Positions 5,399 to 58,115 of a stretch of DNA of 64,000 bases are shown in pieces. How positions within the stretch are numbered: the stretch's first letter is position 1; every line of letters begins with the position of its first letter. Both the position numbers and the translations under genes were made by a program. Origin of the DNA: Thermostichus lividus PCC 6715 (lineage in GTDB: Bacteria; Cyanobacteriota; Cyanobacteriia; Thermosynechococcales; Thermosynechococcaceae); assembly GCF_002754935.1 (NCBI RefSeq), contig NZ_CP018092.1:1054001-1118000 (forward strand). Direction: 5' to 3'. The notes beneath the pieces were generated by a model. It was not told the origin of the DNA. It saw nothing but the letters and a program-made list of their open reading frames with translations, and did no database searches.

Positions 5399-5791
5399 TA
5401 AACTTCCCCGCCCTAGAAGGGCGAGGCTTTCTGTAGCCCTCCGGCTATCTCGCAAGCTAGCCAGGAGCCTCCAGGCAGCGTTACGGACTGCCCCAAAAGC
5501 GCAATATTGATTGCTCCATTTAGGTCTGCATCACCAATCCATCCGCAATGCCCACACTTGAACTTTTTTTCAGTCCTCAGCCCAATATGCAAGCAACAAT
5601 GGCAGGTTTGACTGGTATAGGCAGGTGGTACAGCAACCACCTCAACTCCTTCCTTCATACCCTTGTATTCCAAGAATTGTCGCAACTGATAGAACGCCCA
5701 ACTGTTAGACCGTCTCCGCTCGGTCGTGTTTCTCGGTTGCTGGTTGATTCTATCTCGAATGCCTGTCAAATCCTCGATAGCAACAATGGCA
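5399..5791 (-). pseudogene. TnpB (IS200/IS605 group) 3' fragment, truncated by ISL3 copy 2
   Basis: The open frame at 5413-5769 encodes the C-terminal part of a TnpB-type protein. It shows the zinc-ribbon pair CHCC and CGHC and the RuvC-III-like segment GDADLNGAINIALLG. The frame runs into the left end of ISL3 copy 2 at 5792, and the missing N-terminal part is not found beyond that element, so material was deleted. Beyond the stop lies a hairpin (5404-5420) with the sequence form of an IS200/605 right end. A full TnpB would be about 400 residues. Confidence 0.8.
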
Positions 5792-8521: not shown

Positions 8522-8650
8522 CCAGTCTCCAACTGAGTGCCGACGAAGTTAGCTGACGGGCTAGGATTCAGTGGTATCCTATCTCTGGCGAGAATGCGCC
8601 CCTATTCACTGGGTTCTCCGTTCTGAATCTTGAGGTTTCAGATTAGGCAA
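8522..8650 (-). promoter_or_regulatory. ydaO/yuaA-type c-di-AMP riboswitch
   Basis: Read on the minus strand, this leader carries the ordered conserved blocks of the ydaO aptamer: ACGGAGAACCCA, AGGGGCGCATT, GATAGGA, then CCCGTCAGCTAAC and TTCGTCGGC. The CCGTCAGCTAAC core is diagnostic. It lies about 70-195 bases upstream of the transporter start. A stem GGTTCGGT/ACCGAA between aptamer and ATG could be part of the expression platform. Boundaries are approximate. Confidence 0.8.
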
Positions 8651-8800
8651 GCTTTAGATAAATTGCTGCTGAGTTTAGCACAGCCATTTCCGAGGATTCA
8701 AGAGAGGATTTTCTATGGTCAAAATTAAGGAGAACATAGCTAGTCTGTTAAGACTGCCACAATTTTGGCAAATGTGTCAAAATGTTTCCTGTGTCAACTA

Positions 8801-19104: not shown

Positions 19105-19695
19105 ATGAGTAACATCCAGCGTATTACAGGCCGTGGCTTGCCCCTGCGCGGCAACGACATTGATACCGATCGCATCATTCCGGCACGCTTTCTCCGCTGT
19201 GTCACCTTTGATGGGTTAGGTGCCCACGTCTTTGCTGACGATCGCCACGCTGCCAATGGACAGCACCCCTTCGATGCCCCCCAGTATCAAGGGGCACGTC
19301 TGCTGGTGGTGAATGCCAATTTTGGCTGTGGCTCAAGTCGCGAACACGCCCCCCAAGCGATCGCCCGCTGGGGAATTCAAGCCTTGATTGGCGAAAGCTT
19401 TGCCGAAATTTTTGCCGGTAATTGCTTAGCGATGGGAGTGCCCTGCGTCACAGCAGCACCCGAAGCAATTCAACGGCTACAAACGCTGCTAGAGACGGCA
19501 CCGACTACAGAATTGGTGTTGAACCTTGAGACTCTGACCCTCAGTGGTGCGGACTTGACCCTAGAGGTAAGTATGCCCGACAGCACCCGCCAAATGCTGC
19601 TCTCTGGCCAATGGGATGCCTGCGGCCAACTGCTTGCTAACCTCACCCAGATTCACCAAGTGGCAGCCCAATTGCCCTATCTAGCTTATGCCTGA
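19105..19695 (+). CDS. leuD: 3-isopropylmalate dehydratase small subunit
   Basis: 196 residues. Motifs GNDIDTDRIIPARFL and FGCGSSREHAPQAI are the aconitase-family swivel-domain signatures. It pairs with LeuC in leucine synthesis; leuC is not in the window, as is common in cyanobacteria. The end overlaps the convergent glycosyltransferase by 10 bases. Confidence 0.93.
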   Translation: MSNIQRITGRGLPLRGNDIDTDRIIPARFLRCVTFDGLGAHVFADDRHAANGQHPFDAPQYQGARLLVVNANFGCGSSREHAPQAIARWGIQALIGESFAEIFAGNCLAMGVPCVTAAPEAIQRLQTLLETAPTTELVLNLETLTLSGADLTLEVSMPDSTRQMLLSGQWDACGQLLANLTQIHQVAAQLPYLAYA

Positions 19696-20642
19696 TCTAC
19701 CCGCAGCAGACGCAATGCCACCCCAAACAGGAAGCGGGTCACGGCCCAGCGGGGCGATCGCCCAGTAACTTCGGGTGCTTCCAACAGGCGGTACACAGCG
19801 GCGGCCTGCTGCCACTGTCGTCGCCGTAAAAACCGCCATGTGCCAGCCAAAATAAACTGGTGTAGGAAATCCCGCTGGGCGTGATGCAGTACCCTAGGGG
19901 GCAGAAGGTTAAGCTGGCGGGCTTCCTGAAAGATAGCACTGAGGTGACCGAGGGTCTGGGGCTGAAACATCCCCATGCTCAGGGCTTGATCGTGAATTGT
20001 ATAGGCTGCAGTGGCCAGAGGAACCGTATAGACTCCCGCAGTAGCAAAGAAGCGGAGCCATTGATAAATATCTGTAGCTTCACCGTAGGTGTGGCTAAAT
20101 TCCCCCACCCGCGCTAGGAGCGATCGCCGCCACACCAAGGCAGGAAAGCGGACAAAGGAGGAGTGCGATAAAAGTTGCCGTACCGCAGTGGCGGGTGGGA
20201 GCCACCGTGCCCGAGGCGGAATTTGTTTGCGCAAACAGTGCCCCTGCCCATCCACAAGATGCACCCCAAACAGGAACACATCATACCGCGAACCGTAGCA
20301 GTTCAGCGTATGCAGAAGATGGGGTATCCCCTGCGGTAGCAGATAATCATCATCGTGCAGTAACAGCACAAACTCGCCCCGCGCATAGGCCAAACTCTGA
20401 TTCCAATTGGCAACCATCCCCAAACGTTGCGGATTTTTGTGATATTGCCATGCCCCCTGCCAACCATGGAGAAGACACTCGACCTGTGGCGTGGCAAGGG
20501 TTGAATCATCCGTAATCACGAGTTCAATCGCCGCAGTCTGAGCTGGAGTCAGGGCACTCAGGATGGAGGTAACAGCAGTGCGCAGCCCATCGGGGCGGTT
20601 ATAGGCCGGAATGCAAATACTGAGTTGGGGCAGAGAGATCAC
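19686..20642 (-). CDS. Glycosyltransferase family 2
   Basis: 318 residues. The GT-A fold starts with QLSICIPAYNRPDGLRTAV, and the metal/UDP-binding acidic motif is LLLHDDDYLL. The C-terminal 120 residues lack membrane helices, suggesting a soluble transferase. Acceptor unknown. An IS200/605-like element starts 4 bases beyond its start codon (20,647), so its promoter region must lie in or beyond that element. Confidence 0.85.
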   Translation of the reverse strand: MISLPQLSICIPAYNRPDGLRTAVTSILSALTPAQTAAIELVITDDSTLATPQVECLLHGWQGAWQYHKNPQRLGMVANWNQSLAYARGEFVLLLHDDDYLLPQGIPHLLHTLNCYGSRYDVFLFGVHLVDGQGHCLRKQIPPRARWLPPATAVRQLLSHSSFVRFPALVWRRSLLARVGEFSHTYGEATDIYQWLRFFATAGVYTVPLATAAYTIHDQALSMGMFQPQTLGHLSAIFQEARQLNLLPPRVLHHAQRDFLHQFILAGTWRFLRRRQWQQAAAVYRLLEAPEVTGRSPRWAVTRFLFGVALRLLRVDQA

Positions 20643-20646
20643 ACCT

Positions 20647-20909
20647 TTGACACTCCCAGCACCTAAAGGTGGGGGATTCTTACGCAGTCCATAAACGAAC
20701 TCATAAAGGCGTTGTCAAGACGCCCCTACACAGTTCCTAGAGGCAAAGCCCCAAGGTTCTGCTTACTTGTAACAACTGTCGCCGATTGGGTTTTTCACCA
20801 AGGATGACGACCAAGTATAGTTTAGCACAGAGCAACTAAAGTTGCTTTAGGGCTTTTCCACCCTGTACTAAAGTACGGAGCTACCAAGCTAACCCTCTGT
20901 GTCACTCCT
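20647..20909 (-). mobile_element. ORF-less IS200/IS605-like element with HEARO/omega-RNA-like core (263 bp)
   Basis: Read on the minus strand, the left end AGGAGTGACACAG follows a TTGAT target-like flank. The right end has GAATCCCC, a hairpin and terminal GTCAA. Inside lie TGTGCTAAACTA (20,818-20,829), CATCCT (20,801-20,806) and CAAGTAAG (20,762-20,769) in that order. The 438-bp element at 57.2 kb has the same ends and the same internal order. No protein is encoded. The link to HEARO/IscB omega-RNA is inference from layout. Confidence 0.6.
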
Positions 20910-25619: not shown

Positions 25620-26175
25620 GTCTGTAGGGCGGGGAGGGATAGGAGCAGCAGTCCCAGACTGCCAAATGCAAACTTACAAGTTATAATTTAACGCATGGAA
25701 AAGGCTTACAGCTATCGTTTCTATCCAACCCCTGAGCAAGAAAGCTTGCTGAGGAAAATGTTTGACTGTGTCCGACTGGTGTACAACCGAGCGGTGACAG
25801 CGCGAACTGACGCATGGGATGAACCGCAAGAGCGAGTTGAATACGTCCAACCCTCTGCCATGCTGACGGAGTGGAAAAAACAGGATGACTTCCAGTTTTT
25901 GAATGAAGTTAGCAGCGCTCCCTTGCAACAAAGATTCAGGCATCTGCAAACCGCCTTCACCAACTGCTTTGCGGGACGAGCGGGATACCCACAGTTCAAC
26001 AAGAAGCGCAACGGCGGCAGTTTGGCCGTGGGACACACGCTATCCGCCTGTGGAGGGTTCGCCTTGGCGGCGCGGAGCGCTAACGTAATAAGGGTGGCGG
26101 CAGTTGCAATGAAGCAGGAACCTACGTCGTGAGACTTGGGAATCCCCGTCCTCTAGAGGACAGGGAGGATGTCAA
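25620..26175 (+). mobile_element. Degenerate IS200/IS605 element carrying internally deleted tnpB
   Basis: The right end is clear: GAATCCCC, a GTCCTCTAGAGGAC hairpin, then GGATGTCAA ending at 26,175. The left part has GC-rich inverted sequence near 25,625-25,665 upstream of the tnpB start. Left boundary approximate. The right end matches the two ORF-less elements at 20.6 and 57.2 kb. Confidence 0.65.
25695..26132 (+). pseudogene. tnpB remnant with large internal deletion
   Basis: The first ~110 residues are TnpB-like (EKAYSYRFYPTPEQESLLRKMFDCVRLVYNRAV, then YPQFNKKRNGG). The text then jumps to a C-terminal-tail-like stretch (ACGGFALAARSAN, KQEPTS) and stops, giving 145 residues instead of about 400. 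The RuvC and zinc-ribbon regions are missing, so it cannot be an active nuclease. Confidence 0.75.
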
Positions 26176-35110: not shown

Positions 35111-35245
35111 AGGAGTAGCCCTTTGGCAAATGAATCTACTAACTATTCTATCAACACTTGCGGGATCACTGGCGCTGTAGGGTTCCGACAGGGCTTAGCA
35201 AATACAAAAATCGCCCTTCTTTTTGGTGGGTTGGGGCGGCACCCC

Positions 35246-35371
35246 CATCGCTGCGCATGTGGGGCTAAACTAGACCGAGACCCAAACGTGGCAATCAACA
35301 TAGGGCAGGTGGCATTCAATACCAAGAATATGTTGGAAATCATCTGCGTGATAGCCGAAATTATTGGGTAA
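35246..35371 (+). pseudogene. TnpB C-terminal remnant
   Basis: The plus-strand text HRCACGAKLDRDPNVAINIG matches the zinc-ribbon plus RuvC-III tail of TnpB-type proteins (CxCG then DRDxNxAINI). Upstream there is no matching frame beyond a short stretch, so only a decayed 3' piece remains in this gap between the DUF7219-like gene and the methyltransferase. Confidence 0.5.
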
Positions 35372-57082: not shown

Positions 57083-57748
57083 ATGCAACAAGTTGATATT
57101 GCCGACGCTCAAACTCAAATTAACCAACTTCTGCAATCTGCCCTGCAAGGCGAAGAAGTGATTATCACCCGCATTGACTTCTCCCCTCCTTGAAAGAGAG
57201 GGGATTCCCAAAGGATGCTACGCAACGGGCTGAAGCCGCGTTGCTTCGCTTTTCCCTTGAGCTGTCACCCACAACTTAATGCGGGTGGGGGCAGTCAAAG
57301 ACCCCCTACTCACCTCAAGCATTTCTGCTATTGGGACTACGTTTATGTTTCGGTTCGTGGTTTCGCGCTTTTCAACACTAGCCAATTCGATACGCTCAAC
57401 ATCCTGCCATTGCTTGCAGTGGTTTAGGCTTGCCGCCAAAGCGGTAGTGACTTACTTGCCGGGATTTCTCCGTACTAGGATGTTTCTTCGCGTAGTTGAT
57501 ACGCCTACTTTCCACGTCTCTAGTTTAACACATAGAGAGGGCTAAAGCCCCCTGAGTTGGCTGTATTCCCTCGCTAAAGCGGAGGGGTTTTAGCCCGCCC
57601 ACATCACTCCTATAACCAGCCTATTCTGAAGTTGATTCAGATTTTGTCTCCTGCCAAACGACGACAACGAGGCAGTGCCAAAGGTCAAATCTGGATGGCT
57701 CCTGACTTTGATGCACCCCTTGAAGACTTTCAGGAGTATAGGTCATGA
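57083..57748 (+). pseudogene. Phd/YefM-type antitoxin, split by IS200/605-like element
   Basis: With RBS GGAGG, ATG 57083 starts MQQVDIADAQTQINQLLQ and reads to codon 30. After removal of 57,174-57,611 the frame continues NNQPILKLIQ ... GSAKGQIWMAPDFDAPLEDF and stops at TGA 57,748, a complete 75-residue antitoxin. The stop overlaps the vapC start (ATGA). The split gene can only make a short non-functional product. Confidence 0.85.
57174..57611 (-). mobile_element. ORF-less IS200/IS605-like element with HEARO/omega-RNA-like core (438 bp)
   Basis: Boundaries are set by exact restoration of the antitoxin frame. On the minus strand the target flank is TTAT, the left end AGGAGTGATGTGG with hairpins, and the right end GAATCCCC + hairpin + GTCAA. 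No target duplication, as expected of the family. Internal blocks TGTGTTAAACTA (57,531-57,542), CATCCT (57,477-57,482) and CAAGTAAG (57,451-57,458) recur in the 20.6-kb element. A 73-residue open frame (57,218-57,439) is of doubtful coding value. Confidence 0.75.
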
Positions 57749-57930: not shown

Positions 57931-57936
57931 AGGTGG

Positions 57937-57942
57937 TATAAT
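57937..57942 (+). promoter_or_regulatory. Probable -10 box of the metE transcript
   Basis: TATAAT, about 15-20 bases before the riboswitch aptamer. No good -35 match at the expected distance; that region is the vapC remnant. Confidence 0.45.
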
Positions 57943-57954
57943 TTGGAAAATCGG

Positions 57955-58115
57955 TTTTGATGGGGAACAGCCATCAGACGCAAGGGGGAAAGTGCAGTGT
58001 GAATCTGCCGCTGTCCCGCAGCTGTGAAGAGAGGCGCAACTCTCTGAGTCAGAATGCCCGCCGAGCTATGAACCCGTTACGTATACATCTGCGAGGTACG
58101 GATGATGCAAACTTC
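57955..58115 (+). promoter_or_regulatory. Cobalamin riboswitch
   Basis: The aptamer shows GGGGAACAGCC, GTGTGAATCTGCCGCTGTCC, CGCAGCTGTGAAG and the B12 box GAGTCAGAATGCCCGCC (58,046-58,062). It lies upstream of metE, so high cobalamin should shut the B12-independent enzyme off. Ends approximate. Confidence 0.9.

Follow-up and report, generated by a model that had tools for sequence, protein, structure and literature searches.

A 256-bp ORF-less IS200/IS605 element of Thermostichus lividus with a TnpB ωRNA scaffold at its right end, and its RNA-only relatives

Cas12 is held to descend from TnpB. HEARO, the IscB ωRNA, is an IS200/IS605-linked guide RNA, sometimes found with no nuclease gene beside it, and TldR proteins are cutting-impaired and repress neighbouring genes by RNA guidance. 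Protein-less IS605 elements, called PATEs, are already known: in the passages of PMC3119063 and PMC7290912 that deal with them, they lack a transposase ORF, keep IS605 ends and a tnpB 3' remnant at a complete right end, and produce no target duplication, with a high copy number in Haloquadratum (PMC3119063) and a 271-nt PATE-like example in Halanaerobium hydrogeniformans (PMC7290912). The ωRNA (or reRNA) of TnpB, in the sections devoted to it for ISDra2 (PMC10097598) and Halobacterium (PMC12558985), has its 3' end at the right end of the element, a right-end hairpin, a pseudoknot with a 3' motif (present in the ISDra2 ωRNA, PMC10097598) and a guide expected from the 3' flank; according to PMC10278001, it can be processed from the mRNA of tnpB itself.

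Here we describe an element that shares these PATE features and this TnpB ωRNA architecture, located in a 64,000-nt stretch of the chromosome of Thermostichus lividus PCC 6715 (hereafter the window). Unlike PATEs as described in the above passages, which do not discuss RNA, it carries a covarying ωRNA scaffold with a pseudoknot, together with promoter-like sequence; unlike known TnpB ωRNAs, it has no tnpB in cis, so that its RNA would need to act in trans. No report of promoter-bearing ωRNA PATEs was found in the literature searched, which did not include a 2023 Nature article dealing with TnpB and selfish spread, and a text search for Thermosynechococcus and TnpB together gave no match. We propose, with a probability of about 0.6, that the element is a minimal ωRNA transposon whose flank serves as guide for a TnpB made elsewhere, and that cutting of empty sites retains or copies it. 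Its features are as follows:

20647–20902, minus: RNA-only (ORF-less) IS200/IS605 element of family A, 256 bp, 14 full-length genomic copies
20899–20902, minus: ACAC, putative target/TAM tetranucleotide at the left edge, from comparison of the 14 copies and unoccupied sites
20861–20880, minus: left-end hairpin CTCCGTAC-TTTA-GTACaGGG, one pair broken in the window copy only
20831–20846, minus: second left-end hairpin AGCAACTTTAGTTGCT, from comparison of copies
20814–20827, minus: promoter-like −10 region TGCTAAACTATACT (TGnTAAACT and TATACT), weak alone
20778–20811, minus: 5' hairpin of the RNA, GTCGTC...GGCGAC, from the GEKP region of tnpB, by copy comparison
20647–20769, minus: core of the TnpB ωRNA scaffold (model R1, 132.4 bits)
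20714–20718, minus: pseudoknot loop TTGAC, pairing with the 3' GTCAA (hand-drawn structure, counted pairs)
20647–20679, minus: right end, GAAT ... hairpin ... GTCAA, which is the 3' end of the scaffold (end-pattern match)
20627–20646, minus: predicted guide, 20 nt of host flank past the right end, as expected from TnpB ωRNA architecture
57174–57614, minus: sibling RNA-only element of family B, about 441 bp (sequence comparison)
57215–57343, minus: ωRNA scaffold of this 57-kb element (model R1, E = 7e-7)

BLASTN with the window element against the whole genome (one contig, 2,659,739 bp) returned 37 matches. They include 14 full-length ORF-less copies (78–100% identity, window copy included), each at a different site and with flanks unrelated to those of the others; the 13 other copies are 78–99% identical to the window copy (E values from 3e-128 to 5e-55), and the rest consists of partial matches and of two end-match pairs, each spaced by 1.8 kb. 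Length is exactly 256 bp in 13 of the 14 copies and 257 bp in the last one, and 13 start with ACAC and one with ACAT. A preliminary description of the locus had proposed an ORF-less element of 263 bp. Its lack of ORFs is confirmed, no ORF of 60 aa or more and no recognisable protein-coding frame lying within the element, but its left boundary has to be moved: AGGAGTG (20903–20909) is host DNA, absent beside all 13 other copies. As a whole, this description stands for the ORF-less element, the end motifs and the shared blocks, and is corrected for the left boundary and the type of element. Across the 11 genomes of the genus that were searched, family A matches are found in five; outside T. lividus they amount to one near-full diverged copy (71%, in G006) and short partial matches in G004, G009 and G010.

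The 14 family A sites and one unoccupied paralogue indicate insertion at a short target without target duplication. The element-free orthologous site in the relative G008 retains GAGGAGTG, and the G008 orthologue of the site of copy L002 reads CCCTACAC. The clearest 4-nt target is provided by an unoccupied paralogue of the L008 site in the same genome, where four nucleotides (ACGC) separate the flanks. The comparison with G008 spanned the junction at L001, L006 and the long-copy site L031, all of which are too diverged to define an exact target. Note that the unoccupied L008-target paralogue (L138, G000:C1:453081-453163) has ACGC rather than ACAC at the TAM position, which is possibly the mark of a protected target or possibly due to chance. 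At L002 (G000:C1:429682-429937), about 510 bp that are continuous in G008 (L140) have been lost on the right-end side of the insertion; the present guide of L002 therefore does not come from its original neighbour. Three changes are private to the window copy: both end hairpins have one that breaks a pair, and the 5' hairpin has one that is kept as a G-U pair, so that this copy may now be poorly mobile.

The origin of family A is revealed by two long relatives (1,788 and 1,787 bp), which carry tnpA (Y1_Tnp) and an open 410-aa tnpB; the Y1 transposase frame is open over 162 aa in L031 and over 101 aa in the second long copy. The long copies have their first 73 bp and last 122 bp in common with the ORF-less copies (88–91% identity to the query), hence the ORF-less form is an internal-deletion derivative. 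By comparison of the two forms, it has kept both ends, the 3' end of tnpB and a hairpin segment from the GEKP region of tnpB. Its subterminal hairpins and ends are common to a TnpA-encoding relative, as in PATEs, and family A is probably mobilised by TnpA in trans; the segment homologous to the tnpB 3' end stops at the right end, as in TnpB ωRNAs. The assignment to IS200/IS605 made in the preliminary description is thus upheld by two tnpA/tnpB relatives with the same ends.

The 410-aa TnpB matches PF01385 and PF07282 over the cut-off and has 31 relatives in cyanobacteria; a search of viral contigs gave no match and a search of the PDB a single weak one, to Cas12f (E = 1.8e-4). Its RuvC-III motif reads NADAN. 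From our reading of the alignment, the canonical RuvC-II glutamate is missing, and nuclease activity of the family A TnpB is therefore not assured; rearranged TnpBs can be active, as reported for one RII-r5 ortholog in PMC10278001. Two more TnpB domain fragments lie in the window, at 5503–5694 (minus) and 35141–35302 (plus), the second one below the Pfam cut-off.

The nature of the partner protein bears on the type of RNA. A HEARO or IscB ωRNA, as suggested by the preliminary description, would fit an ORF-less, IS200/IS605-linked sequence with cyanobacterial relatives. Yet HEARO goes with another nuclease and has another fold, and its covariance model RF02033 has no match in this genome, while it matches 8 of 59 genomes of the phylum used as positive control (6 over the cut-off). 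Moreover, the long copies encode TnpB and not IscB or IsrB, and the scaffold sits at the right end. Membership of HEARO is thereby refuted, its probability being practically nil; what holds of the suggestion is an IS200/IS605-linked guide RNA devoid of a nuclease gene, of the TnpB type.

The identity of the right end as a TnpB ωRNA is well supported. We aligned 29 right-end regions: eight of the 14 RNA-only copies of this genome, one from G006, two TnpB-bearing copies of this genome and, after removal of near-duplicates, of truncated loci and of those lacking a clear right end, 18 of the 31 relatives of TnpB. RNAalifold was uninformative on the scaffold when applied to the 14 copies of the genome (covariation term of −2.01, two-sided change in 4 of 70 pairs) and found only 11 pairs in the 29-row alignment; the structure was therefore drawn by hand from the reference sequence as four stems, the right-end hairpin and the pseudoknot (38 pairs, counted over 27 distinct rows). 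With the pseudoknot included, 79.9% of the cells are paired versus 67.3% in shuffles, and the covariation score is 0.305 versus 0.144. Cells with two-sided changes number 124 versus 57.5 in shuffles, so that covariation is present, in line with the structured RNA postulated in the preliminary description. Two of the five measures are not clearly above shuffles, namely the pairs with two-sided changes (20, a value reached by 34 of 500 shuffles) and the further pair types (54, reached by 91 of 500). When slid by one to three columns, the structure is 38–50% paired, but the excess over these slid versions is partly built in, one of the aligned sequences having served to draw the structure.

The pseudoknot helix is paired in 92.6% of cases and is compensated in two relatives (TTAAG:CTTAA and TTGAG:TTCAA). 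Conserved stems, a hairpin at the right end and a hairpin loop that forms a pseudoknot with the 3' motif are the traits by which the ωRNA is recognised in PMC12558985, and all are present here. In L014, L088 and the tnpB of L031, the 5' hairpin still pairs although its letters differ. Both TnpB-bearing family A copies have the loop TTGCT, which leaves three pseudoknot pairs, versus TTGAC in the window copy; the TTGCT loop characterises one family A lineage (L007, L009–L014, L031 and L032) that includes these two copies. A covariance model, R1, was built from the 29-row alignment with the pseudoknot excluded and the 57-kb element absent from the training set.

Model R1 recovers the scaffold of the 57-kb element, which substantiates the relationship between the two elements put forward in the preliminary description, as does their common end, GAATCCCC followed by a hairpin and GTCAA. 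Their supposedly common start, AGGAGTGA, is rejected: this sequence (or AGTAGTGA) lies inside the element in the 57-kb family and is host DNA at the 256-bp element, hence the resemblance is a coincidence. The blocks TGTGCTAAACTA, CATCCT and CAAGTAAG do occur in the same order in both, at element positions 74, 97 and 134 in the 256-bp element and 83, 133 and 157 in the 57-kb element, with a second CATCCT at 398 in the latter. The analogy is incomplete: CAAGTAAG marks the start of the scaffold in the former, but in the latter the scaffold match lies about 108 nt downstream of it, so that this block holds a different structural place. Family B comprises at least 40 near-full-length RNA-only matches in this genome (429–442 nt, 98–100% identity). 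The last 136 bp of the 57-kb element are 98.5–99.3% like the B tnpB copies and its upstream part has no match to a TnpB copy within the stretch compared; from this comparison, the family B RNA-only element may be a mosaic. In G004, another species of the genus, we observed 29 partial matches to the B element (contigs of L242–L260, even numbers), mostly to its first or last 30–80 bp and often at contig ends, whose pattern suggests a many-copy sibling of B with a different interior.

How widespread are such elements in the genome? The search for end motifs proposed in the preliminary description proved informative: the pattern GAATCCCN{8,28}GTCAA occurs 96 times versus 6 for the backward control, which, with the 14 full-length copies, argues against chance. 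By itself, the 8-mer GAATCCCC is mildly enriched in the window (7 versus 2.5 expected). When end types are assigned by simple rules on the end letters, a TnpB domain match is found within 400 bp upstream for 2 of 20 type A, 7 of 52 type B, 7 of 14 type C and 4 of 6 type D ends; four occurrences fall outside types A–D, and an eighth B-like TnpB domain match (G000:C1:1660954) lacks the end pattern. The window also contains a D-type right end, GAATCCCC...GGATGTCAA, at 26140–26175 (plus). A further family, E (about 225 bp), which has a different TnpB, is present as 27 near-full copies and one partial copy, with the left edge TCAC in 22 of 26 copies, and eight of its left-end matches lie about 1 kb from eight 392-aa TnpB genes. 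In the RNA-only copies and the five TnpB-bearing copies of E that were read, loop and 3' end are complementary (GTAAAC and GTTTAC, respectively). RNA-only and TnpB-bearing copies number 14 and 2 for A, at least 40 and 7 for B, and 27 and 8 for E, i.e. at least 81 RNA-only versus 17 TnpB-bearing copies.

At the scale of the phylum, 27 of 117 genomes contain R1 matches. We selected 30 of the listed matches from four other genomes (10 of 13 in G061, 15 of 26 in G074, 3 of 16 in G112 and 2 of 6 in G078). A near-full TnpB lies upstream in 14 of these 30 loci, and in 10 of 26 loci from the phylum search (26 of 30 were examined; two from G000, as well as L286 and L287, were left out). Several of the remaining loci are at contig edges, fragmentary or decayed, therefore not all ORF-less matches are intact RNA-only elements. 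In G061, a genome of the same class but of another cyanobacterial family, there are five RNA-only copies (L298–L302) in which a TTGACA-18/19 nt-TATACT module ends right before the scaffold and the pseudoknot is TTAAG:CTTAA; L300 is interrupted further left. In L295, which has a near-full TnpB, and in L294, where tnpB is truncated, this module stands directly upstream of tnpB, so that the ORF deletion joined the left end and the tnpB promoter-like sequence to the scaffold. The RNA-only copies of G061 have accordingly kept this module and did not acquire it. Among the other G061 loci, L297 is truncated and L296 and L303 hold short remnants. Altogether, RNA-only forms that preserve the scaffold occur in three families of this genome and one elsewhere.

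If the RNA of these elements is functional, its region should be constrained. The alternative is a plain PATE, of which only the ends matter, moved by TnpA in trans, the ωRNA part being carried along as a remnant of the 3' end of tnpB and making no working guide. IS605 PATEs, some with tnpB 3' remnants, are indeed numerous in Haloquadratum in the account given in PMC3119063, alongside the single 271-nt Halanaerobium case described in PMC7290912. Many copies here are nearly identical, hence conservation may reflect youth, and the window RNA does not stand out for the stability of its fold (z = −1.12, a value equalled in 27 of 200 shuffles), which is higher in L014 (z = −3.0). The segregating changes nevertheless argue for constraint in two families: they affect 24 of 90 positions in the left end and promoter versus 25 of 166 in the RNA region for A (p = 0.03; 13 of 14 copies, L014 being dropped for its different length), and 25 of 88 versus 16 of 137 for E (p = 0.002; 26 of 28 copies, L235 and L238 having misfit end patterns). 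In family B (20 exact-length copies), the RNA region shows no excess of conservation (2 of 85 versus 17 of 347, p = 0.39). Pair-breaking changes are below the mean of a null that ignores double changes in A (7 versus 9.4, p = 0.16), B (2 versus 5.0, p = 0.04) and E (4 versus 6.0, p = 0.14), with a combined p of 0.03, the single-family tests being weak. Together with the scaffold-preserving RNA-only forms of the three families and of G061, where the tnpB promoter module has been joined, these data make the plain PATE the less likely reading.

A −10-like hexamer stands directly upstream of the scaffold in all three families: TGCTAAACT/TATACT in A, TGGTATAAT in L014, TGTTAAACT in B and TATAAT in E. 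Its probability in composition shuffles is 0.07 for A (L002, whose letters are those of the window copy), 0.002 for L014, 0.05 for B and 0.04 for E, and 0.28, 0.09 and 0.63 for the further copies L007 and L008 and the diverged G006 copy, respectively. A generic two-hexamer promoter scan detected none on the strand of the element and two on the opposite strand, and for the promoter segments of A and E no clear equivalent was seen in the TnpB-bearing copies set against them (L031, L058). From these motifs, the family A segment is a candidate promoter.

The right end of the window copy lies 4 bp from the GTG start of a 318-aa frame (19686–20642, minus), whose sequence resembles that of a glycosyltransferase. 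The element sits between AGGAG, a likely ribosome-binding sequence, and the start of this frame, and its right-end letters GGGAG may replace AGGAG in this role. The predicted guide thus corresponds to the start of the downstream gene. This overlap, along with the atypical RuvC-II of the family A TnpB, would suit a TldR-like role in which some copies, with a cutting-impaired TnpB, repress neighbouring genes; but the insertion itself splits the site to which the guide corresponds, and flanks differ from one to another of the 14 copies without any relationship, which renders such a role very improbable. Elsewhere in the window, a c-di-AMP riboswitch (8523–8659, minus) and a cobalamin riboswitch (57935–58079, plus) score over the Rfam gathering threshold.

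The minimal ωRNA transposon that we favour would operate as follows. The element comprises (i) a left end with the target tetranucleotide, (ii) a putative −10-type promoter, (iii) a scaffold that stems from the 3' end of tnpB and (iv) a right end that coincides with the scaffold 3' end, so that transcription would continue into the flank and the flank would become the guide. TnpA of an intact relative would move the element as single-stranded DNA, and TnpB of an intact relative would bind its ωRNA in trans and cut alleles in which TAM and flank are joined with no insert, be they left by excision or carried by sister chromosomes; repair would then restore or copy the element. We infer transcription, loading in trans, cutting and retention from this architecture. 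The roughly five-to-one ratio of RNA-only to TnpB-bearing copies could also be that of decoys or brakes, RNAs that occupy TnpB and lower cutting, by which the copies would parasitise or tame autonomous elements; the retention of the guide-placing 3' end and of the pseudoknot speaks against this, no decoy-specific feature was seen, and we hold it to be quite improbable. More tentatively, and somewhat short of even odds, the 81 or more dispersed RNA-only transposons of the three families might constitute a genome-wide, gene-drive-like guide library that ensures retention with a few TnpBs acting in trans, the ωRNA having become an independent selfish gene. Such RNA genes would have arisen repeatedly by ORF deletions that left a promoter beside the scaffold, as in G061, where it is the promoter-like module of tnpB itself.

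A few TnpB copies may thus protect many gene-less transposons. If ωRNAs have turned repeatedly into separate mobile genes that have a promoter and employ TnpB in trans, they would represent a natural step from a cis-acting transposon guide to stand-alone guide RNAs, and would offer a directly testable case of RNA-guided homing by protein-less elements. In practice, guide RNAs should be looked for in IS605 'MITEs/PATEs'.
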